Below, piece by piece: positions 18,019 to 39,036 of a DNA stretch of 64,000 bases. The stretch is from assembly GCA_949283375.1 (NCBI GenBank), contig CASDSM010000031.1, forward strand, positions 1 through 64,000, in the 5' to 3' direction. Under the pieces are notes generated by a model, which made no database searches, was not told where the DNA came from, and worked only from the letters and a program-made list of their open reading frames with translations. This DNA comes from an uncultured Eubacteriales bacterium. GTDB taxonomy: Bacteria > Bacillota > Clostridia > Oscillospirales > Oscillospiraceae. The number at the start of each line of letters is the position of its first letter. Position 1 is the first letter of the stretch. The translations under genes were made by a program, and so were the position numbers.

Positions 18019-18047
18019 TTGACAACGCTTCCCCTGACGAGTATAGT
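18019..18047 (+). promoter_or_regulatory. Promoter of the surface-polymer operon
   Basis: TTGACA (18019-18024) and TATAGT (18042-18047) are 17 bases apart. A second TTGACA at 17980 may belong to an overlapping promoter. The start codon is at 18208, leaving a leader of about 150 bases. That leader contains an 8-bp hairpin with a T-rich loop (18095-18102 with 18110-18117) and a GC-rich stem around 18140-18175. Confidence 0.7.
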
Positions 18048-18207
18048 ATATTTGTCTGCTTATAGACAGAGGATTGTCTTTCTTTCGATGCAGAAATGTC
18101 TGTTTTTTCCAGACATTGGGAAAACGCCCGCAAAAAGGGGCCTGCGGGGCCGTTTCGCCCGCCGTGCGGCGGGTATGGCGGCAAACCGCAGCCAGAGAGG
18201 CAAACGC

Positions 18208-20007
18208 ATGGACGAAAACGAAAATAAAGGCCAAAATACCCACCAGAAGGTGCTCTTTGAGTCGCTGAACATCCTGCTCTCCCGCTGGTCGGACGGGACC
18301 TTTTCCGAGATCCTGGACGACTGGAAGTGGATCTTCTCCTACAGCGCCCGCTACAAGTGGGTGATCGTGTTCTACACCGTGCTCGGCCTTGCGGGCACGA
18401 CCCTCGGGCTGGTGAGCAGCGTGGTGAGCAAATACCTGCTCGACGTCATCACCGGCTACCGGACCGACCAGCTCGGCACCCTGATCGCCGTCATGGTGGG
18501 CTCCACCGTGTTCAACCTGGTCATCAACAGCGTGCTCAACCGCTTCAACACCAAGCTCGCCATCTACATCAACAACGACATCCAGGCGGATATCTTTGAC
18601 AAGATCGTGGACGCCGACTGGCTCGCCATCAGCCGCTACGCCAACGGCGACGTGCTCAACCGCTTCAATGCGGATGTGAACACGGTCAGCAGCAACGCCA
18701 TCAGCTGGCTGCCCTCCATTGTCATCGTGATCTATAACTTTATCGCCACCTTCGCCGTCATCCTCTACTATGACTGGGTCATGGCGGTGATCGCCTTCGC
18801 CAGCGCGCCCTTCCTCTTCCTGATGTCCACCGTCGTGCTGAAAAAGCAGCGCGAGTACGGCAAGCGGGTGCGCGAGATGAGCAGCGAGATGATGAGCTTT
18901 GAGGTGGAGACCTTTTACAACTTCGACACCATCAAGTCCTTCGGCATCTCCCCCCACTACAGCAGCAAGATGCGCTGGTGGCAGGAGAAGTTCAAGGACA
19001 TCAGCCTGCGCTACAATATGTTCTCCATCCAGACGGGGGTGCTGACCTCCCTGATCGGCGCGCTGGTGCAGGGGGCCGCCTTTGGCTACTGCCTCTGGCG
19101 GCTGTGGACGGGGGACATCACCTACGGCACCATGACCCTCTTCCTCCAGCAGCGCAGCAAGCTCTCCAGCGCTTTCAGCAATGTGGTCTCCATCGTCCCC
19201 GCCTTCCTCAACAGCTCCATCTCCGCCCACCGCATCCGCGAGCTGGTGGAGCTGCCCAAGGAGGTCCACATTCCGGAGAGCAGCGGGCTCGACGCGCTCA
19301 TCGGGGACGGCTTCACCGTCCAGCTGCGGGATGTGAACTTCTCCTATGTGGAGGGCACGCGGGTGATCACTGACTCCGCCTTCGTCGCCCACCCGGGGGA
19401 GATCGTCGCCCTGGTCGGCCCCTCCGGCGAGGGGAAGACCACCATGATCCGCCTGATCCTCGGCCTGGTGCGCCCGGAGTCGGGCGAGGCGGTCATCCGC
19501 GGCTCGGACGGGACGGAGGTGCCGATGAACGCGGAGACCCGCCACCTCTTCGCCTACGTCCCCCAGGGCAACACCATCCTCTCCGGCACCATCGCCGAGA
19601 ATATGCGCATGGTCCGGCAGGATGCGACGGATGAGGAGATCGTCGAGGCCCTCAAGATCGCCTGCGCCTGGGACTTCGTGAGCAAAATGCCGGAGACCAT
19701 CCACAGTAAGGTGGGCGAGCGGGGGAGAGGCTTCTCCGAGGGGCAGGCCCAGCGCCTGGCGATCGCCCGCGCGGTGCTGCGCGATGCGCCCATCCTCCTG
19801 CTCGACGAGGCCACCTCCGCCTTGGATGTGAGCACTGAGCGGCAGGTCCTGAAAAACATCGTCCGCCAGCGGCCGAACAAGACCTGCATCGTCACCACCC
19901 ACCGGCCCAGTGTGCTGGGCCTCTGCCAGCGGGTCTACCGGGTGATGCAGACCCATGTGACAGAACTGGATGAAGAGACCTCCACCCGGATGGTACAGGA
20001 TTTCTGA
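18208..20007 (+). CDS. ABC exporter half-transporter (membrane domain plus ATPase)
   Basis: The 599-residue protein has six membrane helices (about 45-330) and a C-terminal ATPase with Walker A GPSGEGKT (404-411), a variant signature FSEGQAQR, Walker B ILLLDEATSALD and H-loop TTHRPS. This is the type IV (MsbA-like) exporter layout, working as a dimer. Start ATG 18208 follows AGAGAGG. Upstream in-frame codons have no site. It opens an operon with Wzz/kinase genes, so export of a lipid-linked or surface component is an inference. A peptide substrate is equally possible. Confidence 0.85.
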   Translation: MDENENKGQNTHQKVLFESLNILLSRWSDGTFSEILDDWKWIFSYSARYKWVIVFYTVLGLAGTTLGLVSSVVSKYLLDVITGYRTDQLGTLIAVMVGSTVFNLVINSVLNRFNTKLAIYINNDIQADIFDKIVDADWLAISRYANGDVLNRFNADVNTVSSNAISWLPSIVIVIYNFIATFAVILYYDWVMAVIAFASAPFLFLMSTVVLKKQREYGKRVREMSSEMMSFEVETFYNFDTIKSFGISPHYSSKMRWWQEKFKDISLRYNMFSIQTGVLTSLIGALVQGAAFGYCLWRLWTGDITYGTMTLFLQQRSKLSSAFSNVVSIVPAFLNSSISAHRIRELVELPKEVHIPESSGLDALIGDGFTVQLRDVNFSYVEGTRVITDSAFVAHPGEIVALVGPSGEGKTTMIRLILGLVRPESGEAVIRGSDGTEVPMNAETRHLFAYVPQGNTILSGTIAENMRMVRQDATDEEIVEALKIACAWDFVSKMPETIHSKVGERGRGFSEGQAQRLAIARAVLRDAPILLLDEATSALDVSTERQVLKNIVRQRPNKTCIVTTHRPSVLGLCQRVYRVMQTHVTELDEETSTRMVQDF

Positions 20008-20044
20008 GGCGCACATGCCGCAGATAAAGGAAGGATAAGTGATT

Positions 20045-20851
20045 ATGAGACTGGCTCGAAGGCTGACGGTATTACTGTTTGTGGTGACGGCGATCTGCTT
20101 CGGACTGTACGTCACGAGAGATGAGATGCTCACTGACAAGGTCGCGCCGGTCATCTCCTGCGACTCTGACACGTTCGAGGCGAGCGTGGAGGCGGGAGAT
20201 GAGGAACTGCTGGCGGGGATGACCGCCCAGGACGACCGGGACGGCGACGTCACCGCCTCTCTGGTGGTGGTCTCCAGGTCCAAATTCATCGAGACCGGGC
20301 GCCTGCGCGTGAACTACGCCGCCTTTGACGCCCAGGGCAACGCGGCGACCTATACCCGGACGCTGACCTACAGCGACTACACCTCGCCGCGCTTTGCCCT
20401 CAGCGAGCCGCTGCGCTTCAACGCGTCCACCTGGTCCTACTCGCTGCTCAACGCGCTGCAGGCCGAGGACTGCCTCGACGGCGACATCAGCAATCTGATC
20501 AAATACCGCTTTGACGATGAGAACTGGTACTACGGCGAGGATGGCAGGCTCGGCGTCACCTTCCAGGTGACCAACAGCGCCGGCGACACCGTCCAGCTCC
20601 CGCTGACGGTGGAGGTGCTCGACGAGGAGGACTATGACCTGGAGTATCCCGAGCTGACGGAGTACCTCGTCTACACCTCCGTGGGCGATGAGCTGACGCC
20701 GCGCAGCTATCTGACGGCGGAGGCGAGAGAGGCCGGCACCGTGCGGGTGGATGACAGCGCGGTGGACTATGATGTGCCCGGGGTCTATGAGATCGTCTAT
20801 ACCCTCGTGGGCGAGGGCAGCGTGACGCTGTTCGTCGTCGTAGAGGAATGA
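20045..20851 (+). CDS. Membrane-anchored Ig-like surface protein, module copy 1
   Basis: The 268-residue protein has one N-terminal membrane helix (about 6-24) and an extracytoplasmic part with two Ig-like repeats marked by D-R-D-G-D-V-T-A-S-L (about 64-73) and CLDGDIS. A C-terminal domain begins ELTEYLVYTSVGDELTPRSYL. The DGD pattern is that of DUF5011/Ig-like bacterial domains. It is clearly paralogous to the 28927-29859 gene, which has the same order of elements. It lies just before a Wzz/kinase gene in both copies, so it probably acts at the surface with the chain-length regulators. Function unproven. Confidence 0.75.
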   Translation: MRLARRLTVLLFVVTAICFGLYVTRDEMLTDKVAPVISCDSDTFEASVEAGDEELLAGMTAQDDRDGDVTASLVVVSRSKFIETGRLRVNYAAFDAQGNAATYTRTLTYSDYTSPRFALSEPLRFNASTWSYSLLNALQAEDCLDGDISNLIKYRFDDENWYYGEDGRLGVTFQVTNSAGDTVQLPLTVEVLDEEDYDLEYPELTEYLVYTSVGDELTPRSYLTAEAREAGTVRVDDSAVDYDVPGVYEIVYTLVGEGSVTLFVVVEE

Positions 20852-20862
20852 GGAGTACAGCC

Positions 20863-22323
20863 ATGCAGGAACAACGTCAGGATACCCTTTCCCGCGGCCT
20901 GGAGCGGATCGAGCCGTACAGCATCCTCACCGACATTCTGCGCAACTGGTGGGTGATCCTGCTCGGCGCCCTCGCCGCGGCCATGATCGCCAACGTCGTG
21001 GTGCGCGAGCAGAGCCACGCCGTCTACAGCTATACCACCAGCGCCACCTTTGTCGTCTCCACCCAGGGCAGCAGCAGCAGCGTGTACAGCAACCTCGCCT
21101 CCGCCCAGTCCACGGCCAACACCTTCTCCAACATCCTCAACAGCGGCATCATGCAGGACGCCGTCTGCGAGGACCTCGGCCTGACCAGCTTTGACGCGCA
21201 GGTGAGCGCCCAGGTCATCACTGAGACCAACCTGCTGGTGCTGACGGTGACCGCAGACTCCCCCCGGCTGGCCTATCAGGTGATCCGCTCCATCATGGAC
21301 AACTACGAGACCATCACCCGCTCGGTGGTGGGCAGTACCATCCTGGAGGTGCTCGAGGAGCCGGAGGTCCCCGTCGGGGGCAGCGGCGCGGCGGACACGC
21401 GGGGGGCGATGATCCGCGGCTTCCAGCTCGGACTGCTCGCCTTTGCGCTCCTGTTTGCCTACCTCTCCTACCGGAGCGACACCATCAAGTCCAGCTCCGA
21501 CCTGAATGAGAAGCTGGACGCCGCGGCGCTTGGCACCATCTACCACGAGCGCAAGTACAAGTCGCTCGGCGCCCGCCTGCGCGGGAAGAAGCGCAGCATC
21601 CTGGTGACGGACGCCACCACCAGCTTCGGCTTTGTGGAGAGCTACAAGAAGATCGCCGCCAAGCTCTCCTATCTGCGCCGCGGGGAGGGCGGGCAGCTGA
21701 TCACCGTCACCAGCCTGCTGGAAAACGAGGGCAAGTCCACCGCGGCGGTCAACCTCGCCCTGTCGCTGGCGATGAACGCCAAGCGGGTCCTCCTGCTCGA
21801 CTGCGACCTGCGCCGCCCCTCGCAGTACCTCGTCCTGGAGAAGCGGAAGGAGCGGGTGCGCAATTGGACCGACCTGCTGTCCACCGACTGCTCGGTGCAG
21901 GACGTCATCCAGTATGACAACGACCGCGGCATCTTCCTGCTGCTGGAGACCAGAGAGCACGCCAACTCCACCGAGCTGCTCTCCAGCAAGACGATGGAGG
22001 TGATGCTGCAGACCCTGCGGCACTATTTCGACTACATCGTGCTCGACTCCCCGCCTCTGTCCGTCACCTCCGACGCCGAGGTGCTGGCGGACCGGACCGA
22101 CCTGAGCGTGCTGGTGGTGCGCTATCACCAGGCGCAGGCGGAGGATCTCAACGACGCCATTGACGTCCTCTCCGCCTGCCGTGCGGAGCTGGCCGGCTGC
22201 GTGCTGAACCGGGCGCGGGCCCTGCCGGGCCTGGGCGCGGTCTCCTACGGCTACGGCCATGGGTATGGCGGATATTACAGCTACGGACATTACGGAAAAT
22301 CGGAGAAGCGAAATCATGAGTGA
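20863..22323 (+). CDS. Fused Wzz-like / BY-kinase protein, module copy 1, type A
   Basis: The 486-residue protein has a Wzz/CpsC-type N-terminal half with membrane helices (about 30-48 and 184-205) around an external domain, and a CpsD-type tyrosine kinase half with Walker A ENEGKST (287-293), Walker A' VLLLDCDLRRP and Walker B DYIVLDSPP. The tail is Tyr/Gly-rich (GYGHGYGGYYSYGHYG), the usual autophosphorylation cluster. BY-kinases control polymer length and export by cyclic phosphorylation. ATG 20863 follows AGGAG. The gene overlaps the next by 8 bases. Confidence 0.9.
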   Translation: MQEQRQDTLSRGLERIEPYSILTDILRNWWVILLGALAAAMIANVVVREQSHAVYSYTTSATFVVSTQGSSSSVYSNLASAQSTANTFSNILNSGIMQDAVCEDLGLTSFDAQVSAQVITETNLLVLTVTADSPRLAYQVIRSIMDNYETITRSVVGSTILEVLEEPEVPVGGSGAADTRGAMIRGFQLGLLAFALLFAYLSYRSDTIKSSSDLNEKLDAAALGTIYHERKYKSLGARLRGKKRSILVTDATTSFGFVESYKKIAAKLSYLRRGEGGQLITVTSLLENEGKSTAAVNLALSLAMNAKRVLLLDCDLRRPSQYLVLEKRKERVRNWTDLLSTDCSVQDVIQYDNDRGIFLLLETREHANSTELLSSKTMEVMLQTLRHYFDYIVLDSPPLSVTSDAEVLADRTDLSVLVVRYHQAQAEDLNDAIDVLSACRAELAGCVLNRARALPGLGAVSYGYGHGYGGYYSYGHYGKSEKRNHE

Positions 22324-23767
22324 GCGTACAGAGCGGCATACCGCCAGCCCGGAAACGGTGGAAAAAATTGACCTGACGCACCTGGCAGAGCAGCTCTGGG
22401 AGATGGTCAGGCGCTATTGGTGGATCGTGGCGGCGCTGACGGCGCTGTTTGCCGCGGCGTCCTGGCTCCACGTCAGCAGGACCTATGTCCCCCGCTATGA
22501 GGCGGAGGCCACCCTCGCCATCTATGCCTCCCGCGACAGTCAGGAGTCCGGCTCCAACAGCAGCAACAGCGTGGCGACGGCCCAGCAGCTCGGCAAGGTG
22601 TTTCCCTACATCCTCACCAGCGGCATCCTCTCGGACATGGTGGCCGAGGACCTGGGCACCGTCTCGGTGCCGGGCGAGATCTCGGTGACGGCGGTGGAGG
22701 ACACCAACCTGGTCACCATCCGCGTGACCGCATCGGACGGCCAGACCGCCTATGACGTGCTCCAGTCCGTCCTGGAGAACTATCCCCAGGTCGCCCAGTT
22801 CGTCATCGGCCAGACGGAGTACACCATCCTCAGCGAGAGCGGCGTCCCCACCGACAGCGGCACGGAGTATGTGACGCGCGGCTCGGTGCGCCGGGGCGCG
22901 GCGCTCGGCTTTGCCGCCGGCATGGCCCTCATGGTCTTCTTCACTCTGCTGCGCCGGACGATCCGCCGGCCCAGCGACTTTCAGAGCCTGTTCCACGTCC
23001 CGTGCCTGGGCACGCTGCCGGTCTACCAGGAGAAGAAGCGGAGAAAGAACAAGGGCAAGCAGGCAAACCTCCTGGCCTCCAACGTGCCGCAGAGCTATCT
23101 GGAGGCGATCCGGGCGCTGCGCGCGCGGGTGGAGCGCAAGCTGGAGCAGGCGGGCTGCAAGACCCTGCTCGTCACCAGCTCCATCCCGGAGGAGGGCAAG
23201 TCCACCGTGGCGGCCAATCTCGCCATCGCCATGGCCCAGAAGGGGCTGCGCGTCATCCTGGTGGACTGCGACCTGCGCCACCCCTCCATCCAGAGCCGGA
23301 TGGGCATCGCCGGCGCGTTCCCCGGCCTGGTGGCGGTCCTGAAGGGTCAGGCCGCCCTGGAGGACGCGCTCTATCAGGTACCGGTGAGCGATATCGACCT
23401 GAAGGTGCTCTGCGGCGCGCGCAACACCGCCAAAGAGGTGGAGATCCTCGGCGGCGCGGAGATGAAGCGCCTGATCGCCCACTTCGAGCAGATGGCGGAC
23501 GTGGTGATCCTGGACACCTCGCCGTCGGCTATGCTGGCCGATGCGATGGTGCTCGCGCACAACGTGCCGGCGGCGCTGTATGTCGTGCGCTACGACCACA
23601 CCCGCGTGGAGCATGTGCTCAGCGGCATCGAGGAGCTCTCCGGCAGCCGGATCAACATCATCGGCTGCGTGCTCAACGAGGGGAAATTTGCCGCCCAGAG
23701 CAGCTATGGCTACCGCTATGGCCGCTATGGCTACGGCCGCTCGCGCTACAGCGGCGCGGGCAGATGA
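22316..23767 (+). CDS. Fused Wzz-like / BY-kinase protein, module copy 1, type B
   Basis: The 483-residue protein has the same two-part layout as its neighbour: Wzz-like membrane half (helices about 35-52 and 200-222) and kinase half with EEGKST (292-297), VILVDCDLRHPS and DVVILDTSP. It ends in a Tyr-rich tail (YGYRYGRYGYGRSRYSG). It is closer in order and in its VEQ/VEKIDL N-terminal signature to the 31249-32772 protein than to the gene beside it, so type A and type B were paired before the module was duplicated. Confidence 0.9.
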   Translation: MSERTERHTASPETVEKIDLTHLAEQLWEMVRRYWWIVAALTALFAAASWLHVSRTYVPRYEAEATLAIYASRDSQESGSNSSNSVATAQQLGKVFPYILTSGILSDMVAEDLGTVSVPGEISVTAVEDTNLVTIRVTASDGQTAYDVLQSVLENYPQVAQFVIGQTEYTILSESGVPTDSGTEYVTRGSVRRGAALGFAAGMALMVFFTLLRRTIRRPSDFQSLFHVPCLGTLPVYQEKKRRKNKGKQANLLASNVPQSYLEAIRALRARVERKLEQAGCKTLLVTSSIPEEGKSTVAANLAIAMAQKGLRVILVDCDLRHPSIQSRMGIAGAFPGLVAVLKGQAALEDALYQVPVSDIDLKVLCGARNTAKEVEILGGAEMKRLIAHFEQMADVVILDTSPSAMLADAMVLAHNVPAALYVVRYDHTRVEHVLSGIEELSGSRINIIGCVLNEGKFAAQSSYGYRYGRYGYGRSRYSGAGR

Positions 23768-23845
23768 TCCGCCGCACAGCGGCGGACCGGCGTGTCAGAC
23801 GGCCCTGCCGGTCTGACTTCCGTTGGAGAGAAGAGTGGGGGATCT

Positions 23846-25735
23846 ATGCAAGTAAAGCATAACTATCTGGTTCATCTGACAAAGGTATTTACCCTTGTCT
23901 TCTGTGATATACTGCTGATCGTGGCCAGCATGGTGGGCGCGCTCTGGATCCGGCATGATTTTCAGCTCAGCGCGATCGACCCGGAATTTCTGGAGACGCT
24001 CCTCCTGTATCTGCCGGTCAACCTCTTCTGCACGCTGCTGGTCTTCAAGCTCTGCCGGCTCTACAACAATCTCTGGCAGTTTGCCGGCATCATGGAACTC
24101 AACAGCGTCGTCGCGGCGGTGCTGCTGTCCACCCTGCTGCAGACGGCGGGGATGGCCCTGCTCCGCCTGCGCATCCCGCGCAGCTATCCCTTCCTCTACA
24201 TCCTGCTGCTCTTCCTCGCCGTCTCCGCGAGCCGGTATCTGATCCGCGTCCTCTACCGGGAGCGGCAGAGGAACGCCGCGGCACAGCCGGACATCCGCAC
24301 CCTGATCGTGGGCGCCGGCGGGGCGGGGAACATGCTCCTGCGGGAGATCAAGAGCAGCCGGCAGGTCCACCGCGTCGTCCCCTGTATCGTGGACGACGAC
24401 CCGGTCAAGCGGGGGACCTATCTGCACGGCGTCCCCGTGGTGGGGGACTTTTCGGCGATCCCGCGCTGTGTGCAGGAGTATCAGATCCAGGAGATCGTCA
24501 TCGCCATCCCCTCCCTCAGCCCGGCCAGAAAAAAGGCCCTGCTGGAGATCTGCCAGGAGACGGCCTGCAAGACGCTGACCCTCCCCGGCATCTATCAGAT
24601 CGTCAACGGCGAGGTGAGCGTCTCCATGCTCCGCCAGGTGGACATCAACGACCTGCTGGGCCGCCCGCCGGTGGAGCTGGAGATGGAGGAGATCATGGAC
24701 TATGTCTCCGGCAAGGTGATCCTGGTCACGGGTGGCGGCGGCTCCATCGGCAGCGAGATCTGCCGCCAGCTTGCGCTCCACCGGCCCCGCCTGCTGATCG
24801 TGTTCGACATCTACGAAAACAGCGTGTACGACCTCCAGCACGAGCTGCTCGACCGGCATCCCGACCTGCAGCTGGAGGTGCTCATCGGCTCGGTGCGCAA
24901 CCGCGCGCGTGTGGACAGCATCTTTGAGACCTATCACCCCGACCTGGTCTTCCACGCGGCGGCGCACAAGCACGTCCCGCTGATGGAGGACAGCCCGAAC
25001 GAGGCGGTGAAGAACAACGTCCTCGGCACCTGGGTGGTCGCCCGCGCCGCGGACGCCTTCGGGGCGCGGAAGATGGTGCTCATCTCCACCGACAAGGCGG
25101 TGCGCCCGACGAATGTCATGGGCGCGTCCAAGCGCATCTGTGAGCTGGTCGTCCAGCGGTTCTCTCAGACCTCGAAGACGGAGTTCGCCGCCGTGCGCTT
25201 TGGCAACGTCCTCGGCAGCAACGGCAGCGTGGTCCCTCTCTTCCAGAAGCAGATCGAGGCGGGCGGCCCGGTGACGGTCACCCACCCGGACATCATCCGC
25301 TATTTCATGACCATCCCGGAGGCGGTCAACCTGGTGCTCCAGTGCGGGGCCCTCGCCCGCGGCGGCGAGGTCTTCATCCTGGACATGGGCGAGCCGGTCA
25401 AGATCGACGACCTCGCCCGGAAGATGATCCGCTGCTGCGGCCTGGTGCCCGACCGGGACATCCGGATCGAGTACATCGGCCTGCGCCCGGGGGAGAAGCT
25501 CTATGAGGAGCTGCTGCTCAACGAGGACAATCTGAAAAAAACGGCGAAGGACCGCATCTTCGTCGCTCGCCAGCCGGAGGTGGACACCGCCTGGCTCGAC
25601 CACGAGGTGGAGGAGCTGGTGAGCAATGCCTTCAACGAGACGGGAGACATCCGGGCGCGGATCAAGCGCCTGGTGCCGGAGTATGAGCCGCGGGCGAACC
25701 GCGCGCCGGCGGAGGCGGAGACGCCTGCATCATGA
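23846..25735 (+). CDS. CapD/PglF-type nucleotide-sugar epimerase/dehydratase
   Basis: The 629-residue protein has four N-terminal membrane helices (about 10-130), a CoA-binding-like Rossmann domain (IVGAGGAGNMLLREI) and an SDR domain with TGGGGSIGSE (295-304) and STDKAVRPTNVMGASKR. Met replaces the usual SDR Tyr, as in CapD/WbpM/PglF enzymes that act on UDP-GlcNAc (4,6-dehydration or epimerisation). It supplies an activated sugar for surface polymer or glycan synthesis. It follows the type B kinase after 78 bases containing two GC hairpins and is closed by a terminator. Confidence 0.9.
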   Translation: MQVKHNYLVHLTKVFTLVFCDILLIVASMVGALWIRHDFQLSAIDPEFLETLLLYLPVNLFCTLLVFKLCRLYNNLWQFAGIMELNSVVAAVLLSTLLQTAGMALLRLRIPRSYPFLYILLLFLAVSASRYLIRVLYRERQRNAAAQPDIRTLIVGAGGAGNMLLREIKSSRQVHRVVPCIVDDDPVKRGTYLHGVPVVGDFSAIPRCVQEYQIQEIVIAIPSLSPARKKALLEICQETACKTLTLPGIYQIVNGEVSVSMLRQVDINDLLGRPPVELEMEEIMDYVSGKVILVTGGGGSIGSEICRQLALHRPRLLIVFDIYENSVYDLQHELLDRHPDLQLEVLIGSVRNRARVDSIFETYHPDLVFHAAAHKHVPLMEDSPNEAVKNNVLGTWVVARAADAFGARKMVLISTDKAVRPTNVMGASKRICELVVQRFSQTSKTEFAAVRFGNVLGSNGSVVPLFQKQIEAGGPVTVTHPDIIRYFMTIPEAVNLVLQCGALARGGEVFILDMGEPVKIDDLARKMIRCCGLVPDRDIRIEYIGLRPGEKLYEELLLNEDNLKKTAKDRIFVARQPEVDTAWLDHEVEELVSNAFNETGDIRARIKRLVPEYEPRANRAPAEAETPAS

Positions 25736-28926: not shown

Positions 28927-29859
28927 GTGAGGCGCTTACAGCTTTTGAGCGGGATCCTGTTTGTGATCGCCGCAATTTCCTTTGCCGTGTTTCAGATCCG
29001 CGTCAACATGGCGGCGGACCAGACCGGCCCGGAGATCATCATGGAGGAGGAGCAGATCACCGTCTCCGTCGGCGCGGACGAGGCGGAGCTGCTCGCCGGC
29101 ATCCGCGCCGTGGATGAGCGGGACGGAGATGTGTCCGCCAGCCTGATCGTGGAGAGCCTGAGCAACTTCACCGCTGATAACACCCGGCTGCTCACCTTTG
29201 CCGCCAGCGACGCGGACGGGCATATCGTCAAGGGCACCCGGGAGATCGTCTACGAGGACTATCAGCCGCCCCGATTTACCCTCCAGGCCCCGCTCCGGTT
29301 CCAGACCGGCACGGCCGACCTGCTCGCGGTGCTGGGGGCGGAGGACGTGCTCGACGGCGACCTGTCCTCCAAGATCAAGATCTCCAGCAGCTACAGCTTC
29401 TCCGCCAATGAGCCGGGGGACTATATGATGGAGTTCTCCGTGGTCAACAGCGCCGGAGATGTGAGCCGTCTGCCGGTCACGGTGACGGTCTACTCCCCCT
29501 CGGAGGCGTTTGACGCCCCGGTGATCGAGCTGTCGGAGTATCTGATCTACCTCTCGCCCGGCGAGGAGTTCGACCCCTGGGACTATGTGGAGCGCATCAC
29601 GCTGGGCGGCGCCGTGTTCTCCCGGGAGGGCGCGCGCCTGCGCCTGGAGACGGCGGGGGAGACAGAGGAGGACGGCGAAGACGGCGGCTGGGAGGAAGTG
29701 GACAGCGGCCTCAGCCTGACGTCGATCGACTCCTCTGACGTGCGCATCCGCAGCGGTGTGGACCGGCAGACGCCCGGCGTCTATGAGATTACCTATCAGT
29801 TTACGCAGGACGGCTATGGGACCGGCATGGTCCGCCTGGTCGTCGTGGTCAGCGATTGA
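28927..29859 (+). CDS. Membrane-anchored Ig-like surface protein, module copy 2
   Basis: The 310-residue paralogue of the 20045-20851 protein has the same parts: N-terminal membrane helix (about 5-22), a repeat with D-E-R-D-G-D-V-S-A-S-L, a repeat with VLDGDLS, and a C-terminal domain opening ELSEYLIYLSPGEEFDPWDYV. The latter carries an extra acidic insert of about 40 residues (GETEEDGEDGG region). It starts with GTG 28927 behind GAGGGAG. The ATG 8 bases upstream runs into a stop. It is directly followed by a type A kinase gene as in copy 1. Confidence 0.75.
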   Translation: MRRLQLLSGILFVIAAISFAVFQIRVNMAADQTGPEIIMEEEQITVSVGADEAELLAGIRAVDERDGDVSASLIVESLSNFTADNTRLLTFAASDADGHIVKGTREIVYEDYQPPRFTLQAPLRFQTGTADLLAVLGAEDVLDGDLSSKIKISSSYSFSANEPGDYMMEFSVVNSAGDVSRLPVTVTVYSPSEAFDAPVIELSEYLIYLSPGEEFDPWDYVERITLGGAVFSREGARLRLETAGETEEDGEDGGWEEVDSGLSLTSIDSSDVRIRSGVDRQTPGVYEITYQFTQDGYGTGMVRLVVVVSD

Positions 29860-29873
29860 GGAGTGGTGGCCTG

Positions 29874-31268
29874 ATGGAGAGAATACTGGGCAGGGACGTC
29901 AACCTGCCAAGCATCGTCAGGGATGTCCTGCGCGGATGGTCCGTGATCCTGCTCCTGGCGGTCTCGGCCAGCCTGTTTGCCAATATCTGGGTGACGGCGC
30001 GCTATCAGCCGGTCTACAGCACCCGGATCACCTTCGCCGTCACCACACAGGGGACGAACGCCACCATCTATCAGAACCTCACCTCCGCCAAAGAACTGGC
30101 GGAGAAGTTCACCCTCATCCTGCAGAGCAACGTCCTGCGGCGGCGGGTGATGGAGGATCTGGAGCTCGGGCAGTTTGACGCGGAGACCTCCGCCGTGCAG
30201 GTCGCCGAGACAAATATGGTGGAGCTGAAGGTCTCAGCCGGCTCGGCGATGAGGGCCTACCGCATCCTCCAGTCCATCATGGACAACTATGACTCCGTCT
30301 CCGACTACGTCATCGGCGGCGTGGTGCTGGAGGTGATCCAGCAGCCCACCATTCCGCTCACGCCGGACAATCCCCTCAACGTGCGCACCGCCATGCGCAA
30401 CAGCTTCCTCGTGACGGCGGTGCTCGCGGCGCTCTATCTGGCCTGGCGCTCCTACCGGCGCGACACCATCAAGAGCGAGGCGCAGCTCGCCGACAAGGTG
30501 GATGCCCGCCGCCTGGGGACGGTCTACCGCGAGCGCAAGCCGGTGCGCCTCTTTGGGCGGCGGCATGGCTCCGGCGTGTCCATGCTGATCGACAACCCCC
30601 TGCGCAGCTTCTGGTTTGTGGAGTCCAACCGGCTCATGGCCTCCCGGGTGCGCAGCCATCTGGACCGCCGCGGACAGAAGGTGATCATGGTCACCAGCGT
30701 CATGGAGAACGAGGGGAAGTCCACCGTGGCCTCCAACCTGGCCCTCTCCCTGGCGGAGGAGGGCGGCCGGGTGCTGCTGGTGGACTGCGACTTCCGCAAG
30801 CCCTCCCTGCACAAGATCTTCGAGCTGACCCGCCAGGAGGACCGCGACCTGGCCGCAGAGCTGGCCAAACGGGGCGACCCGGAGCGCCTGCTCACCCGCC
30901 GCGGCGAGAGCAGCCTCAGCCTGGTGGTGAATGCCACCCCCTCCGCCTCCGCCGAGACTCTCCTGGAGTCGGGGGCCCTGCGGGCGTTTGTGGAGCAGAT
31001 GCGCGGACGGATGGACTACATCGTGCTCGACACCGCCCCGATGGCGCTGGTCTCGGACACGGAGGACATGGTCAGCCTGGCGGACGCCATCCTGCTGGTC
31101 GTGCGCGAGGATATGGTGCTGGCCGCGCACATCAACGACGCGGTGGACGCCCTCAACCGCGAGGGGGGCAAGGTCGCCGGCTGTGTGCTCAACTATGCGA
31201 CCCGCGGCCTGACCGGCACTACAGGCCGCTACGGATATGGAGGCAAGTATGGAAAAGGAGCGGAATAA
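29874..31268 (+). CDS. Fused Wzz-like / BY-kinase protein, module copy 2, type A
   Basis: The 464-residue protein has membrane helices at about 24-43 and 180-198 around the Wzz-like external domain, then the kinase half with ENEGKST, VLLVDCDFRKPS and DYIVLDTAP. The tail is short (GRYGYGGKYGKGAE). It shares with the copy 1 type A protein the sequence of the external domain (NLTSAKELAEKFTLILQSNVL against NLASAQSTANTFSNILNSGI) and the SYRRDTIKS segment after helix 2. It overlaps the next gene by 20 bases. Confidence 0.9.
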   Translation: MERILGRDVNLPSIVRDVLRGWSVILLLAVSASLFANIWVTARYQPVYSTRITFAVTTQGTNATIYQNLTSAKELAEKFTLILQSNVLRRRVMEDLELGQFDAETSAVQVAETNMVELKVSAGSAMRAYRILQSIMDNYDSVSDYVIGGVVLEVIQQPTIPLTPDNPLNVRTAMRNSFLVTAVLAALYLAWRSYRRDTIKSEAQLADKVDARRLGTVYRERKPVRLFGRRHGSGVSMLIDNPLRSFWFVESNRLMASRVRSHLDRRGQKVIMVTSVMENEGKSTVASNLALSLAEEGGRVLLVDCDFRKPSLHKIFELTRQEDRDLAAELAKRGDPERLLTRRGESSLSLVVNATPSASAETLLESGALRAFVEQMRGRMDYIVLDTAPMALVSDTEDMVSLADAILLVVREDMVLAAHINDAVDALNREGGKVAGCVLNYATRGLTGTTGRYGYGGKYGKGAE

Positions 31269-32772
31269 CAGCCCCGCCGCGGTGGAGCAGATCGACCTCC
31301 TCCGCGTCTTCGCCGACGCCTGGAGCGGCGTGAAGCGGTTCTGGTGGCTCTGCCTGGCGATCGTCAGCCTGTGCGCGACCGTGTTCTACTGGAACGGCGT
31401 GCGCACCTATACCCCCTCCTATCAGGCCTACGCCTCCTTTGTGGTCAACACAAAGACCGCCTACGGCTACAGCGAGAGCTATTACAACCAGACCACCGCC
31501 GCCCAGCTCAGCCGCACCTTCCCCTATATCCTCACCAGCGGCGCGCTCAGTCAGGTGGTGGCCGACAGCCTCGGATTGGAGAGCATCCCCGCCGTCATCA
31601 CCGCCGAGTCGATGGAGGAGACCGCCCTGTTCACCATCACCGTGACCGCCTCCGATGCGCAGACCTCCTATGACGTCCTGCAGGCCGTGATCGAGCACTA
31701 TCCCACCGTGGCGGAGTACATTATTGGGGACACCCAGCTCATCCTGATGGACGAGAGCGGCGTGCCCGAAACAGTGAGCAACCCGCCCGACTTCCGCCGC
31801 GGCGCGCTGCGCGGCATTCTGGTGGGCGGGATGCTCTGCGCCGTCCTCCTCGCCTTCTACGCCCTCACGCGCAACCGCGTCTGGAGCGAGGGCGACCTGA
31901 AAAAACACATCAGCCTCTCCTGTCTGGGCGGAATTCCCCAGACGAAGGTGAAAAAGCGCACCGATACCCGGCAGAACCAGATCGTCCTGGACAGCAAAAA
32001 CAGCGAGAGCGCCTTTGGCGAGAGCCTGCGCGGCGTGCGCAACCGCATCCTTCAGGAGGCGGAGAAGACCGGCGTCCGCCGCATCCTGATCACCAGCGCC
32101 GCGGCGGGGGAGGGGAAGACCACCTTCGCCGTCAACCTGGCCATCTCTCTGGCCAGAAAGGGCAAGCGCGTCCTCCTGCTCGACGGGGACCTGCGCAACC
32201 CCTCCGTGGCCAAGGCGATGGGCATGTCCAGCTTCAGCGCCGCCGAGCATGAGGGGGCGAAGGACGACCCCATGAGCGCCTGGCAGGTGATGCCCTACGG
32301 CGATATGAATCTGGGCGTCTGCTGGAAGGCGGGCAGGAAAAACCGCAGGCCGGACAGCGCCATCACCCAGGCGGAGATCCGGACGCTCGTCGGCACGCTG
32401 GAGCGCGAGTGCGACTTCCTGATCGTGGACACCCCGCCGGCCGGCATCGTCTCGGACGCCTCCCTGTTCGCCCGCTATCTCGACGCCGCCGTGCTGGTGG
32501 TCCGGCAGGACTATGCGCGGGCGGACCGCGTGGTCTCCGCCGTGGAGTCCATCGCGGACACCGGCGTGCAGATGCTCGGCTATGTCCTCAACGGCGTCCG
32601 GCAGGCCGGCGGCGGCTATGGCTACGGGTACGGCTATGGTTACGGCTACGGGTATGGCTACGGCTACGGTTCCCGCCGCTATGGCTATGGCCACTACGGC
32701 CACTACGGCCAGCCGGAGAAGAAGGGCCGGGAGAAAAAAGGGGAGAGCGCCCCCGCCTCGCCCGGAAGATGA
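31249..32772 (+). CDS. Fused Wzz-like / BY-kinase protein, module copy 2, type B, with long Tyr-Gly tail
   Basis: The 507-residue protein has helices at about 28-46 and 184-204, Walker A GEGKTT, VLLLDGDLRNPS and DFLIVDTPP. In Walker A' Gly replaces the usual Cys (LLLDGD). Its C terminus has an unusually long run of alternating Tyr and Gly (about 20 residues) followed by SRRYGYGHYGHYG. ATG 31249 follows GGAGG inside the previous gene. The tail gives many candidate phosphorylation sites, more than in the three sister proteins. Confidence 0.9.
   Translation: MEKERNNSPAAVEQIDLLRVFADAWSGVKRFWWLCLAIVSLCATVFYWNGVRTYTPSYQAYASFVVNTKTAYGYSESYYNQTTAAQLSRTFPYILTSGALSQVVADSLGLESIPAVITAESMEETALFTITVTASDAQTSYDVLQAVIEHYPTVAEYIIGDTQLILMDESGVPETVSNPPDFRRGALRGILVGGMLCAVLLAFYALTRNRVWSEGDLKKHISLSCLGGIPQTKVKKRTDTRQNQIVLDSKNSESAFGESLRGVRNRILQEAEKTGVRRILITSAAAGEGKTTFAVNLAISLARKGKRVLLLDGDLRNPSVAKAMGMSSFSAAEHEGAKDDPMSAWQVMPYGDMNLGVCWKAGRKNRRPDSAITQAEIRTLVGTLERECDFLIVDTPPAGIVSDASLFARYLDAAVLVVRQDYARADRVVSAVESIADTGVQMLGYVLNGVRQAGGGYGYGYGYGYGYGYGYGYGSRRYGYGHYGHYGQPEKKGREKKGESAPASPGR
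32615..32701 (+). repeat. Tandem 6-base repeat coding for the Tyr-Gly tail
   Basis: Units of GGCTAT/GGCTAC/GGTTAC/GGGTAC code for Gly-Tyr and repeat about ten times without interruption. Both codons vary in the third position (TAT/TAC, GGC/GGT/GGG), so the array is imperfect at DNA level but perfect at protein level. Confidence 0.8.
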
Positions 32773-32800: not shown

Positions 32801-33253
32801 ATGAAGATCATTGACACGGTGGAATACGTCTCCGCCCTGCGCGAGCTGACCGAGGCCGGGCGCGAGGTGAGCATGCGCATCGCCGGCAGCAGCATGTCCC
32901 CCTTCCTGATCCACAACCGGGACACGATCACCTTCCGCAAGCCGGACCGCCCCCTGCGCGCGGGCGACATGGTCTTCTACCAGCGCCGGAGCGGCCAGTT
33001 CGTGATGCACCGCATCTGCCGCATCCGCCCGGAGGGCCTCTATATCGTGGGCGACGCCCAGACCGAAATCGAAGGCCCCGTCTGTCCCGATCAGGTCTTC
33101 GCCGTCATCACCCGCGTGCACCGCAAGGGCCGCTGGATCGGCCCCGAGGACTTCTGGTGGCGCTTTTTCGCCGGGCCGTGGCGCTGGCTGCTCCCCCTGC
33201 GGCCCCTGCTCACGCGGCTGTACCGCCCCATTTACCGCATCCGAAACAGATAA
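32801..33253 (+). CDS. S26 signal-peptidase-like protein without membrane anchor
   Basis: The 150-residue protein has the peptidase S24/S26 beta fold with GSSMSP (nucleophile Ser31 expected), GDMVFYQRR and VMHRI (His70), then YIVGDAQT. The Ser/His arrangement is that of SipW/SEC11-type signal peptidases, where His replaces the general-base Lys. However, the usual N-terminal membrane helix is missing; a Trp/Leu-rich C-terminal segment (about 118-145) might attach to the membrane. It follows the type B kinase after 28 bases and is convergent with the PqqD/radical-SAM cassette, to which such peptidases are often linked. Confidence 0.75.
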   Translation: MKIIDTVEYVSALRELTEAGREVSMRIAGSSMSPFLIHNRDTITFRKPDRPLRAGDMVFYQRRSGQFVMHRICRIRPEGLYIVGDAQTEIEGPVCPDQVFAVITRVHRKGRWIGPEDFWWRFFAGPWRWLLPLRPLLTRLYRPIYRIRNR

Positions 33254-33254
33254 A

Positions 33255-33297
33255 AACTGCCGGAGAGGAGGAAAAATCCCCTCTCCGGCAGTTCTTT
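33255..33297. terminator. Bidirectional terminator between the surface-polymer locus and the peptide cassette
   Basis: A 14-bp stem (33255-33268 with 33280-33293) is preceded by A residues and followed by TCTTTT, so it can end transcription from both sides. Confidence 0.88.
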
Positions 33298-33305
33298 TGT
33301 GCGCT

Positions 33306-34157
33306 TCACTTTTCCCCCGGATAGAGCGCCGCCTCCAGGGCGCGCACCGCCCCCTCCGAGATGTCGCAGGTGAGCTGCCAGACGGGGACGCTCCGCACGA
33401 GGTCCTCGATGCCGTCCATCGCCGCGCGCACGAAGTCGGGGTTCCACTGGTTCACCGTGATCTGGCTGTAGAGCTGGCCGAAGGCCCGCATGGGAGAGAG
33501 GCGCTCCACCGTGTTCACCTTCCCCTGCCGGAGCATCACCACGGCGCGGATGGGGGTGTCCCCCAGATGGCAGACATCGGACGAGCCGCAGACCGGCCAG
33601 CCGCAGGCGGTCCACCGACCGTCCACCCGGCGCAGGAGGGACCGGTCCCCGTTCACCGTCCGGCTGCCGCGATGGCGCTCCCACAGCCCCGCCTGGGTGG
33701 ATTTCCCCGTCTCGGACGGGGCGGAGAAGAGGATGGCCTCCCCCTGATAGACGGTATAGGCGCAGTGGAGCACCAGCGCCCCCCGGCCGATCATCCGCCG
33801 CTCGAGCGCGAGAAGGCCGGTAAAGGCGGGGTCGCAGCCGAGCAGCGGCTCCCCCTCCAGCGCCCAGACCTCCGCCGCCTCCTCCGACACCTCATGGTAG
33901 AGGGCGTAGGGGGTGCTCCGCCCCTTCACGCCGGTCAGGCGGCGCTCCAGCGCGCCCTCCCGGAACACCAGCAGGTCGGGCCGCCGGGCGACGCAGTCCC
34001 CCTCCGGCGCGGGGAGGGCGGGCACGGTGTGGAGCCGGTAGCGGTACTCCGCCGTTCCCTCAGAGACGGCAAAGAGCCGGAAGTGCTCCGGCACGGGGAA
34101 GTCCCCCTCCGCCTCCACCCGGAAGCGAAGGCCGCCGATCTCAAAGAGCTGGTTCAT
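33306..34157 (-). CDS. HPr-kinase-like protein of the peptide-modification cassette
   Basis: The 283-residue protein keeps HPr kinase features in its C-terminal half: a His in LVLHCAYTVYQGEAILF (His131), Walker A APSETGKST (146-154) and NGDRSLL (Asp171). The N-terminal half is not the HprK regulatory domain. HprK-like proteins of this kind occur with PqqD and radical SAM genes, and lasso-peptide kinases of this family phosphorylate a C-terminal Ser of the precursor. It overlaps the radical SAM gene by 17 bases and ends the cassette at the shared terminator. A role as precursor kinase is inferred. Confidence 0.75.
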   Translation of the reverse strand: MNQLFEIGGLRFRVEAEGDFPVPEHFRLFAVSEGTAEYRYRLHTVPALPAPEGDCVARRPDLLVFREGALERRLTGVKGRSTPYALYHEVSEEAAEVWALEGEPLLGCDPAFTGLLALERRMIGRGALVLHCAYTVYQGEAILFSAPSETGKSTQAGLWERHRGSRTVNGDRSLLRRVDGRWTACGWPVCGSSDVCHLGDTPIRAVVMLRQGKVNTVERLSPMRAFGQLYSQITVNQWNPDFVRAAMDGIEDLVRSVPVWQLTCDISEGAVRALEAALYPGEK

Positions 34158-35253
34158 GGGATAATTCCTCCTCCAGCAGACGGATAGTCTCCTCTGTATA
34201 GCGGCACATGTACTCCGGCGTCCCGTCAAAGCGGCCGGTCTCCAGATAGGCGCAGGCGGCGCAGGTCTGGCAGACGTCTCTTCTCACACAGGCCCCGCAC
34301 CGGACACTCATGCGGACATCCCCGAACTGCGATGATATCTGCCCCCACGCCTTTGCAAAGCCAAGCTCGAACACCGGCGCTTCCGGCTCAGACAGCATGA
34401 TGCAGGGGCGCATCATCCCCTGCCAGTTGACGACAAGGGAGCTTCTGCCCGCCCGGCACAGAGGGGGCGCGGAGACAGGCTCTCCCGGCTCTGCCTGCGC
34501 GCGGGCGAGGAACGCCGAGGCCGCAGTCCGAAACTGCTCCTTCTCCCGTCTGCGCATCCCTGCCACCCGCGCCGCCGCGGCCCGCTCCGGGGAGAGCCGG
34601 GACTGCATGTCAAACGCCGCTGCGCGCTCCCGTGCGGCGGGATACATATAGGTGTCAAATTTCCAGGCGGTATTGCAGTCCTCCACGATGGAGCACAGCG
34701 CGTCCAAATCGTCCACGTTTTCCGGAGTGATGCTGCCGTTGATTTTGACATCCACATGCCGCTCCGTCAGCAGCTTGACTGCGCGGCGCGCCCGGCGATA
34801 GCCGTCCGGATAGTGGCAGAGCCGCCGGTAAGTCTCCTCATCCTTCCCGTAGAGGGTGATATTCACCCGGCGCGGCAGATGGCGGGCGAAGAAGTCCGCC
34901 CAATCCTCATCAATCAGCGTCCCGTTGGTGTTGACGGTCAGAACCATACCCATTCGCTTCAGGGAGGTATAGATCTCCCGAAAGTCCGGGTGCAGCAGCG
35001 GCTCCCCGCCGGTCAGCAGGACAAAGAGCGTGCCCGCCCGGCAAAGCTCCTGCGCGAGGGCCATCCACTCCGCCCCGCTGCGCAGCCGCCCCCGCTGCGC
35101 CAGCTCCTGAGGGCTGAGACGGACATAGCACATGTCACAGTTCATATTGCACAGCGGCGTCAGCTCCAGAATTGCATTGATGGGGACGTGCATCTGCGTG
35201 GCCCGCTCGCACATCGCCCGCTCAACGTTCCCGCGGTATTCCATCGGCTCCAT
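34141..35253 (-). CDS. Radical SAM/SPASM peptide-modifying enzyme
   Basis: The 370-residue enzyme has the radical SAM CxxxCxxC (Cys35, Cys39, Cys42, in CNMNCDMC), the TGGEP SAM-binding motif (around 81) and a C-terminal SPASM-type Cys cluster (CGACVRRDVCQTCAAC plus a late Cys) that binds auxiliary Fe-S clusters. Such enzymes build thioether, C-C or epimer modifications in ribosomal peptides guided by a PqqD-type recognition element. A PqqD-like gene and a candidate precursor lie just upstream. ATG 35253 follows GAGGG at 7 bases. Confidence 0.9.
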   Translation of the reverse strand: MEPMEYRGNVERAMCERATQMHVPINAILELTPLCNMNCDMCYVRLSPQELAQRGRLRSGAEWMALAQELCRAGTLFVLLTGGEPLLHPDFREIYTSLKRMGMVLTVNTNGTLIDEDWADFFARHLPRRVNITLYGKDEETYRRLCHYPDGYRRARRAVKLLTERHVDVKINGSITPENVDDLDALCSIVEDCNTAWKFDTYMYPAARERAAAFDMQSRLSPERAAAARVAGMRRREKEQFRTAASAFLARAQAEPGEPVSAPPLCRAGRSSLVVNWQGMMRPCIMLSEPEAPVFELGFAKAWGQISSQFGDVRMSVRCGACVRRDVCQTCAACAYLETGRFDGTPEYMCRYTEETIRLLEEELSHEPAL

Positions 35254-35274
35254 ATGATGCCCTCACTGTCACAA

Positions 35275-35302
35275 GGCGGATGACCATCGCTGGTCATCCG
35301 CC
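35275..35302 (-). other. Hairpin between precursor and radical SAM genes
   Basis: A perfect 12-bp stem (35275-35286 with 35291-35302, loop of 4) lies in the 74-base gap. No T run follows on the minus strand. It may protect or partly attenuate the transcript, giving more precursor than enzyme, as is common in ribosomal-peptide operons. Confidence 0.65.
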
Positions 35303-35327
35303 CGTCTTCTCTCAGATATGTATGCGC

Positions 35328-35729
35328 TTACGATGCGTTGGGGTTGGTCTCGTAGTTCTCGTCGCCGGGCGTCATGACGTGGTAGTCAACACTGCCGTCG
35401 TGAAAAGATTCCTGCCACCAGAACACGGCAGATGATCTGTGCCGATTGGGGTTGGTACCACTCGTAACAAAGCCGTTTGCCGACGGGGGATCGTCCCGAA
35501 TCACGCCGCTGTGCCAGTTGCCGCAGCCGCTAAAGCCCCCCAATCCCCCGGAATAAATCCGCCTATCATCGGCGTCCCACACGCCGTTGTTGTTGGTGTC
35601 ATCATACAGATAGCGATAGCTGCTATTGCCGTTCGGCGTCGTGCACTTGATCTTGTAGCACGCAGCCACATACTCGTTGGCGATGAACTTCTGCACCAGG
35701 ACACGCGGCGCTTCCCAAGTCTTCTTCAC
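35328..35729 (-). CDS. Candidate modified-peptide precursor (NEYVAAC leader, EF-hand-like loop, C-terminal Ser)
   Basis: The 133-residue protein starts MKKTWEAPRVLVQKFIANEYVAAC, a leader pattern I recall from many short uncharacterised clostridial proteins. It has three Cys (24, 29, 69), an Asp/Asn-rich loop DTNNNGVWDADD (44-55) that fits a dockerin/EF-hand calcium loop, a Trp/His/Asp-rich C-terminal half and the end YETNPNAS. No signal peptide is evident. The GTG start lies 1 base after the pqqD-like stop with GGAGGAGG inside that gene. The region is less GC-rich than its neighbours. Role as substrate of the adjacent enzymes is inferred from order and coupling. Confidence 0.65.
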   Translation of the reverse strand: MKKTWEAPRVLVQKFIANEYVAACYKIKCTTPNGNSSYRYLYDDTNNNGVWDADDRRIYSGGLGGFSGCGNWHSGVIRDDPPSANGFVTSGTNPNRHRSSAVFWWQESFHDGSVDYHVMTPGDENYETNPNAS

Positions 35730-35730
35730 G

Positions 35731-36021
35731 TTATTCTACCTCCTCCAGAATTCGCACCCCCAGAGATTCCTGTACAAACTGTTCCACAGCCTGCCGCAGG
35801 ACCTCGGGCGGCGCCTCATATTCCTCTTCCAACAGGGTGGTCACATCCTCCACCGTCCGCGCCGTCTCAAACGCGCGCCAGAGGAAGACCGCCGTCTCGT
35901 TCGGGGAGAGCATGGCGTTGGCCAGCACCCCCTCGGCATCCACCGGGATAATGGCGTATTCCCCCACGATCTCACGGAGGATGAAGCCCGGCCGGATGCG
36001 GTATCTCCTGTTCTCGCTCAT
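35731..36021 (-). CDS. PqqD-family peptide-recognition protein
   Basis: The 96-residue protein matches the PqqD fold: YRIRPGFILREIVGEYAIIPV (beta hairpins), NAMLSPNETAVFLWRAFE (first helix, with the typical N-x-T/S-A-x-x-L/I-W) and a helical C-terminal half. PqqD-like domains bind leader peptides and present them to the radical SAM partner. It is first in the cassette. ATG 36021 has AGGAT very close. A GTG at 36039 behind GGAG is an alternative giving six more residues. Confidence 0.82.
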   Translation of the reverse strand: MSENRRYRIRPGFILREIVGEYAIIPVDAEGVLANAMLSPNETAVFLWRAFETARTVEDVTTLLEEEYEAPPEVLRQAVEQFVQESLGVRILEEVE

Positions 36022-36194
36022 ATCCTCAGGCGGCGGCACGGCGCTCCGGCCGGCTCCACCACAGGAGCAGCGTATCAGCCTGTGAACCTCCGCCCATAAA
36101 ACACCTGCCTTGCCTGCATTTTGGCGGCCTCCGCGTGGGGGGTGGGCCTGTCCTTCCCGGCAGCGGGGAGAACCGCCTGTGCTTTACAGAGACT

Positions 36195-36223
36195 ATTATA
36201 GTCCGCCCGTCCGAAGAATGCAA
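36195..36223 (-). promoter_or_regulatory. Promoter of the PqqD/radical-SAM cassette
   Basis: On the minus strand TTGCAT (36223-36218) and a perfect TATAAT (36200-36195) are 17 bases apart, about 170 bases upstream of the first gene. Beyond it, 36224-36432 is AT-rich with poly-T and several GCAAAA repeats and holds no gene I can support. Confidence 0.65.
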
Positions 36224-38909: not shown

Positions 38910-38953
38910 ATCCATTGTTCTGATGAGGCCGCGCGGCCGAAGAGAGCGCTTAT

Positions 38954-39026
<73 letters not shown>

Positions 39027-39036
39027 TCGAGAAACA

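Follow-up and report, generated by a model that had tools for sequence, protein, structure and literature searches.

The window analysed here is a 64,000-nucleotide (nt) stretch of contig CASDSM010000031.1 from an uncultured Eubacteriales bacterium (assembly GCA_949283375.1). Its minus strand carries four genes that belong together, a candidate peptide-modification cassette encoding, in order, a PqqD-like protein, a 133-amino-acid (aa) precursor, a radical SAM enzyme and an HprK-like kinase; an S26-type protease gene faces them from the plus strand (Table 1). The GTG start of the precursor gene lies one base past the PqqD stop codon, a 74-nt gap containing a hairpin separates the precursor from the radical SAM gene, and the radical SAM and kinase genes overlap by 17 nt. 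An initial annotation, made from the letters of this DNA, had described four tightly coupled minus-strand genes and read their products as a PqqD-like protein, a peptide substrate, a radical SAM/SPASM enzyme and an HprK-like protein overlapping it. The spacing given here and the evidence below bear out each of these points.

In addition to its Pfam match, the PqqD-like protein resembles discrete recognition elements (RREs) of ribosomally synthesized and posttranslationally modified peptides (RiPPs): the best PDB matches of its family profile (A4) are 9x8z_B, entered as "PqqD family protein," TbiB1 and a lasso PqqD chaperone. The radical SAM gene matches Pfam Radical_SAM at 85 bits, and the Pfam SPASM model scores 17.1 bits, under its cut-off of 21.5. 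The CX3CX2C and SPASM Cys pattern of a radical SAM/SPASM peptide maturase is nonetheless present: C35, C39 and C42, as well as seven C-terminal Cys (C266, C284, C319, C322, C328, C331 and C350), are invariant in all nine aligned sequences. The best PDB match is SkfB, the sporulation-killing-factor maturase, and the top NCBIfam match is the mycofactocin maturase (89.1 bits; cut-off, 265). The 25 NCBIfam radical SAM models listed among the 77 that match all fall short of their cut-offs, so the radical reaction cannot be read from the enzyme family. For the kinase, Pfam searched with the single sequence gave no match and a six-sequence profile did not find HPrK; HPr kinase emerged once the profile comprised 35 sequences (E, 0.0045). 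An AlphaFold model (predicted local distance difference test [pLDDT], 96.4) matches the PEPCK/HPrK fold, and residues H131, G151, K152, T154 and D171 are invariant in 35 of 35 sequences, 31 of which weakly match the ScmC model.

The best model for the S26 gene is TIGR02228 sigpep_I_arch, at 19.1 bits, below the cut-off of 51.85; Ser31, His70 and Asp85 are invariant in 12 of 12 sequences. No exporter had been recognized in the initial annotation, but the window does hold an ABC transporter of the cassette family. A profile built from three cassette-adjacent transporters scores it at 1143.5 bits (templates, 1268 to 1299). Such a transporter adjoins the kinase or S26 gene in seven related stretches (L004, L018, L020, L052, L069, L073 and L121), and the L004 relative has ABC_membrane and ABC_tran domains. 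The window thus holds an RRE, a precursor, a radical SAM enzyme, a kinase, an S26 protease and an exporter, and all five cassette genes and the exporter have open frames. The exporter heads a run of plus-strand genes, broken at about 25.7 to 28.0 kb, which we take to be exopolysaccharide (EPS) and BY-kinase genes; the far end of the run abuts the S26 gene. Two gene sets (20039-25735 and 28927-32772, plus strand), with Gly-Tyr-rich tails on the BY-kinase-like proteins, presumably each comprise a small membrane-protein-like gene and Wzz/BY-kinase-like genes; a CapD-like gene accompanies them.

The four genes had been placed behind one TTGCAT-17-TATAAT promoter and across a shared terminator from the S26 gene. 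The promoter sequence is present and its -10 box is perfect, but the -35 box is weak, matching at three of six positions, and for this reason the promoter scan did not list the site. The S26 gene and the stem between the convergent genes are likewise there (fold z, -6.85); the scan lists the terminator on the minus strand only, and we infer use in both directions because the stem is palindromic. The hairpin between the precursor and radical SAM genes has 13 pairs in a minus-strand fold (z, -3.59) and 12 pairs in the scan, which lists it as the plus-strand site of the same palindrome. Rfam at gathering scores found no riboswitch or RNA leader in the window; its sole match, with which ARAGORN agrees, is a tRNA-Ala (anticodon ggc; 38953-39028, plus strand).

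Table 1. Cassette genes and associated features, in window coordinates
Feature	Position	Strand	Remarks
PqqD-like discrete RRE	35731-36039	-	Pfam PqqD, 53 bits (cut-off, 23.4)
133-aa precursor, GTG start	35328-35729	-	Leader MKKTWEAPRVLVQKFIANEYVAAC; last residue Ser133
Leader segment M1-A23 of precursor	35661-35729	-	WxxPxV RRE-binding motif, W5-V10; putative cleavage site
Codon of C-terminal Ser133	35331-35333	-	Putative phosphoacceptor
Radical SAM/SPASM maturase	34141-35253	-	CNMNCDMC (CX3CX2C) and seven SPASM-type Cys
HprK-like peptide kinase (HPrK/PEPCK fold)	33306-34157	-	Profile and AlphaFold model
S26/archaeal-type signal-peptidase-like protease, probable leader peptidase (LppS-like)	32801-33253	+	
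ABC exporter of cassette family	17998-20007	+	ORF opens at GTG 17998; probable ATG at 18208
Probable shared terminator of convergent kinase and S26 genes	33252-33296		19-bp stem
Precursor/radical SAM intergenic hairpin	about 35274-35303	-	Possible attenuator or RNA-stability element
Promoter-like TTGCAT-17-TATAAT	36195-36223	-	Read off the sequence

Neighbors and distribution of the gene families

Of the 394 genomes searched in the order, 18 (the window's own, G000, among them) had matches to a profile of the radical SAM enzyme (A3) at E ≤ 1e-60, 29 places in all. We fetched 48 stretches picked by the radical SAM enzyme or the precursor and searched them for co-occurrence of the four families, as the initial annotation had suggested. 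Within 5 kb of the 48 radical SAM genes, the window's included, lay an HprK-like gene in 42 cases, a precursor in 40, a PqqD-like gene in 36, Wzz/BY-kinase-like genes in 12 and an NTP transferase in 11. Because the kinase accompanies 42 of the 48, we regard it and the radical SAM enzyme as regular partners. Among 61 kinases, 48 have a radical SAM gene within 1 kb, and the distance matrices of the two families correlate (r = 0.82, reached by none of 2000 permutations), a correlation to which shared ancestry contributes.

Selection by the precursor alone gave 21 places in 12 of 298 genomes, with a radical SAM gene within 5 kb at 15, a PqqD gene at 14, a kinase at 13 and any of the three at 16. 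Two of the five places without a partner are on contigs under 7 kb. Precursor homologues mostly lacking PqqD and radical SAM neighbors, which the initial annotation had named as the outcome that would count against it, were not found. Selection by the kinase alone, in the class of a Thomasclavelia metagenome-assembled genome (MAG), gave 80 places in 67 of 376 genomes, from which 20 stretches were fetched. The 22 kinases of this sample were accompanied by PqqD in 19 cases, S26 in 17, radical SAM in 13, NTP transferase in 12, a leader-type open reading frame (ORF) in 7 and an ABC transporter in 5.

A wide presence of the 130-aa precursor was rejected, as its distribution is patchy: it occurs in 12 of 298 genomes of the family of a Blautia MAG (that MAG included), in 3 of 147 other relatives of the window genome and in none of 392 other genomes of the class. 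A phage origin was also rejected, a scan of viral contigs with the precursor alignment having given no relative; plasmids were not searched.

The window's own genome has two PqqD genes, two such kinase genes and three such radical SAM genes, and ORFs with the same N terminus as the precursor lie elsewhere on contigs C29 (two) and C36 (one). On contig C29 (L016; 7731-10546), a radical SAM gene is accompanied by a tandem pair of precursors, one of which is broken by in-frame stops. This 16-kb stretch has no PqqD or kinase gene, and the PqqD protein and kinase of the window probably serve the C29 radical SAM enzyme and precursors in trans. Another cassette with PqqD, radical SAM, kinase and precursor genes lies on contig C36 (L017; 6907-10151); it is of the type with a short precursor and a Tyr leader. 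Next to it is a 1739-aa ORF whose N terminus has a signal-like stretch.

Leader recognition and the precursor family

The 133-aa protein has no Pfam or NCBIfam match. A 24-residue leader profile run on the 48 fetched stretches returned 50 distinct precursor ORFs, the window's included. All 50 leaders contain [W/Y]xxP (W in 26, Y in 24); they usually also carry F or Y at about position 15, plus Ala and Cys in the low twenties. Beyond the leader the precursors are mutually dissimilar except within subtypes, and the core is very variable. Since the family shares little beyond a leader with an RRE-binding motif, and its genes adjoin those for the radical SAM enzyme, PqqD protein and kinase, these sequences support the view that the 133-aa protein behaves as a substrate and that its relatives are putative substrates.

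Linear polyphosphorylated peptides (LPP) were described from the lpp cluster of Paenibacillus alginolyticus in May 2026 (Nat Commun; PMC13381572). In the LPP system, the leader Pro is held by N33 of the RRE, and D70 forms a bond to the leader Tyr. Paeninodin RREs, which accept Trp leaders, instead carry a conserved Gly in place of N33, and PbaB1 has Gln in place of D70 (PMC13381572). We take 9x8z_B to be LppB because its Asn and Asp lie 37 positions apart, like N33 and D70; N47 and A84 of the window RRE align with these two residues. We paired 41 RREs with the nearest same-strand precursor, five of them having none. At the D70 position, Asp is present in 21 of 21 RREs with Tyr leaders and in 5 of 15 with Trp leaders (the window has Ala), counts that come from related, not independent, sequences, with some pairs kilobases apart. 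Co-adaptation of RRE and leader predicts this pattern at D70, in line with the work on LppB and PbaB1 (PMC13381572). We consider recognition and co-occurrence well supported.

Ser is the last residue of 45 of the 50 precursors, including the window's (29 of 32 long and 16 of 18 short ones), compared with 29 of 508 other ORFs of the same stretches, taken mechanically as the longest nonoverlapping ORFs of at least 120 aa. Part of the long set was found by a full-length profile that includes the C terminus, which gives a slight bias to Ser enders; the short set came mainly via the radical SAM profile. In an alignment of 28 long precursors (A8), the leader is followed by an invariant Cys24, and among hydroxyl residues only the Ser column at the very end is invariant. 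For these reasons we propose the C-terminal Ser as the phosphosite and the core as the target of the radical SAM enzyme.

Full-length relatives 64 to 65% identical to the window precursor occur in L003 and L004, whose hosts are the Thomasclavelia and Blautia MAGs. This identity across MAGs suggests that the whole core matters and moves between lineages; mis-binning of the two MAGs is possible. AlphaFold, run on the 28 long precursors, returned an all-beta domain with moderate confidence (pLDDT, 79.8; predicted template modeling score [pTM], 0.67), and the model had no match among solved folds. The precursor might stay unprocessed, as a small folded secreted or surface protein that is tagged by the kinase and whose whole-domain core is linked to capsule regulation. 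The whole-protein identity between the window and the two named hosts, the beta domain and the Wzz/BY-kinase-like genes near 12 of the 48 radical SAM genes fit such a protein. However, hypervariable cores behind a constant leader, in the company of an RRE and S26 protease, typically mark a leader that is cleaved, and neither the confidence of the model nor its failure to match a solved fold helps the case, which we regard as quite improbable.

Core residues 44 to 55 of the precursor form a DxNxNGxxDxxD stretch that resembles a calcium-binding loop, and other long precursors (L018, L052 and type-2 cores) show comparable stretches. On the Thomasclavelia MAG contig that also contains L003, four different long precursors cluster around one radical SAM gene (L112), which suggests one maturase with several substrates.

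Proposed pathway and alternatives

We consider it probable that the cassette is a RiPP-type protein-modification system in which a radical SAM/SPASM enzyme is combined with a phosphopeptide chassis like that of LPP or paeninodin. We propose the following order of steps, chemistry, phosphosite, cleavage site and function. The PqqD-type RRE would bind the WxxPxV leader and present the core of about 110 residues to both enzymes. The radical SAM/SPASM enzyme probably modifies the core, a Cys- or aromatic-centered crosslink being most likely, and the HprK-like kinase would phosphorylate or polyphosphorylate the C-terminal Ser133. The S26 protease would then cut the leader off near the VAA/C junction. 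Finally, the ABC transporter at 18.2 to 20.0 kb would carry the product out of the cell, where it might end up on the surface next to the apparent capsule/EPS machinery of the neighboring genes.

Several observations weigh against this reading. Within 5 kb of the 48 radical SAM genes, an ABC transporter was found in 15 cases and an S26 gene in 13, and in the window some 12.8 kb separate the exporter from the S26 gene. NTP_transf_5 (PF14907), an LPP core gene, has no match in the whole of the window's own genome. At the N33 position, Asn is kept in 15 of 15 RREs with Trp leaders, unlike the Gly of paeninodin RREs. Five of the 50 precursors do not end in Ser; one is the broken C29 copy (N), and the others, L118:17978 (..PNASV), L054 (Y), L126 (W) and L070 (F), are apparently intact, although the L070 precursor has a weak leader score and lies on the strand opposite to its radical SAM gene. 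The counts run over related sequences, so that nominal significance overstates their independence. In the kinase-first sample, 1 of 10 leader-type ORFs ends in Ser, several of them being weak leader matches, which rules out a universal C-terminal Ser. In most of its short ORFs, a Ser lies no more than a few residues from the leader IA, and there this Ser seems the likelier target, so that the phosphosite may not be at the C terminus in all cases. This tendency to the reverse pattern, with Ser near the Ala of the leader and no C-terminal Ser in 9 of 10, suggests that the phosphosite moved, which is consistent with our proposal and does not prove it.

LppK polyphosphorylates Ser3 of its substrate, and leader cleavage by LppS takes place in the presence of the RRE (PMC13381572). 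The window might hold a plain LPP pathway, with a kinase that, like LppK, targets a Ser or Thr near the start of the core and a radical SAM enzyme for accessory tailoring. The core genes are the same, and the kinase-first ORFs just described point this way. In the 28 long precursors, however, that place is taken by the invariant Cys24, and the last Ser is the sole invariant hydroxyl; the window leader lacks the Px9Fx[T/A] pattern; and the kinase is a regular partner of the radical SAM enzyme. We consider a plain LPP pathway unlikely.

The radical chemistry might instead define the product. In a new class like the ranthipeptides or sactipeptides, Cys-centered thioether or other crosslinks would be its main feature, and the phosphate would only gate leader cleavage and later be removed or capped. 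Each of the 50 precursors has at least two Cys and 26 have four, the enzyme has a SPASM architecture with SkfB as its best PDB match, and unphosphorylated lpp precursor is cleaved poorly in vivo (PMC13381572). Against this, the spacing of the core Cys varies across subtypes, and none of the listed NCBIfam radical SAM models passes its cut-off. A class of this kind is conceivable but doubtful.

We consider it highly improbable that the cassette is decaying or nonfunctional in this genome. One C29 precursor copy has in-frame stops, the genome lacks the NTP transferase and the exporter stands apart from the cassette; the five window genes and the exporter are nevertheless open, and the radical SAM enzyme, kinase and S26 protease retain their invariant residues.

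Returning to the combined radical SAM and phosphopeptide pathway, a more specific form of it is a tentative possibility: a hybrid class of modified secreted proteins. A single RRE would pass a folded core of some 110 residues to both enzymes, and the product would bear a crosslink of radical origin as well as one or more phosphates on its C-terminal Ser. If true, no earlier RiPP family would, to our knowledge, have joined these two chemistries, and the product might be a surface or signaling molecule of Bacillota with a link to the capsule. In either form, one pathway would join PqqD-guided radical SAM maturation, peptide kinases of the lasso/LPP type and S26 leader peptidases. An uninterrupted 633-aa ORF in one relative (L177:6861-8762, plus strand) comprises a radical SAM/SPASM domain and an HprK-like kinase domain. 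It is the only such frame among the stretches searched; 3 kb further on lies another radical SAM-kinase pair, which is not fused. The two genes normally overlap, and a single wrong base there could mimic a fusion, so we give little weight to this one case from one assembly, a caveat to be set with those above; if real, it would be a one-chain form of the hybrid class. The family offers 50 substrate sequences, a sharply defined prediction for the phosphosite and a possible fusion enzyme for structural work, and it would make the role of phosphate-bearing, capsule-linked RiPPs testable in another set of bacteria.

Comparison with known systems

Systems of the MftC and SkfB type (mycofactocin and sactipeptide maturases) share the radical SAM and SPASM domains and use PqqD-type recognition. 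They differ in the precursor and in the sub-cut-off match of the window enzyme, and we know of no HprK-like kinase in them. The NCBIfam SynChlorMet set is closer in composition, with an ScmC-like kinase, a PqqD-related ScmD and radical SAM/SPASM proteins ScmE and ScmF. The window proteins score far below its cut-offs, however (ScmC, 25.2 versus 125; ScmD, 22.5 versus 100; ScmE, 80.1 versus 400), and the name SynChlorMet was not found in the open-licence literature searched. In that literature, supplements being outside its scope, we also found no description of a RiPP system that combines a radical SAM enzyme, a PqqD protein and an HprK-like kinase.

The phosphorylated lasso peptides paeninodin, pseudomycoidin and Bsf have a PqqD-like B1 protein, an HprK-like kinase and a YxxP/WxxP leader, as does the cassette (PMC10368454). 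The kinases known before BsfK always phosphorylated the C-terminal Ser, the residue proposed here, whereas BsfK, whose activity is raised by the RRE, phosphorylates Ser3 (PMC10368454). The window differs by its radical SAM enzyme and its core of about 110 aa, and no macrolactam synthetase or B2 peptidase was recognized among the ORFs looked at around the cassette, where no aimed search for them was made.

The LPP core consists of an RRE, a kinase, an S26 protease and an exporter (PMC13381572). The window has a discrete PqqD-type RRE, an HprK-like kinase recognized by profile and fold, an archaeal-type S26 peptidase recognized by its best, sub-cut-off model and its Ser, His and Asp, and an MsbA-like ABC exporter. 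Further likenesses are the [Y/W]xxPx[V/L] leader motif with variable cores, the site beside apparent capsule/EPS genes, the patchy distribution and an NTP transferase in several relatives. In contrast, the genes considered here are regularly accompanied by one for a radical SAM/SPASM enzyme, and the terms "radical SAM," "rSAM" and "SPASM" are absent from the main text of PMC13381572, to which this statement is confined, the supplements lying outside its scope. The window leader, WEAPRVLVQKFIANEYVAAC, reads Px6F...AxC where LPP leaders follow YxxPxVLxHQxIxFETxxS or Px9Fx[T/A]; Cys24 stands where LPP has the phosphorylated Ser3; the C-terminal Ser is conserved; and both Trp and Tyr leaders occur. 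The NTP transferase, found near 11 of the 48 related radical SAM genes, is missing from the window's own genome. Three LPP features (NTP transferase, leader consensus and Ser3) are thus absent or different. We file the cassette as a variant and not as an LPP member. The suggestion in the initial annotation that the product class may be new does not stand as worded, since kinase, RRE, S26 protease and ABC transporter make up the LPP core and resemble phosphorylated lasso pathways (PMC13381572, PMC10368454). The unusual features that remain are a radical SAM/SPASM enzyme added to an LPP-type core, the large precursor core and the C-terminal Ser.

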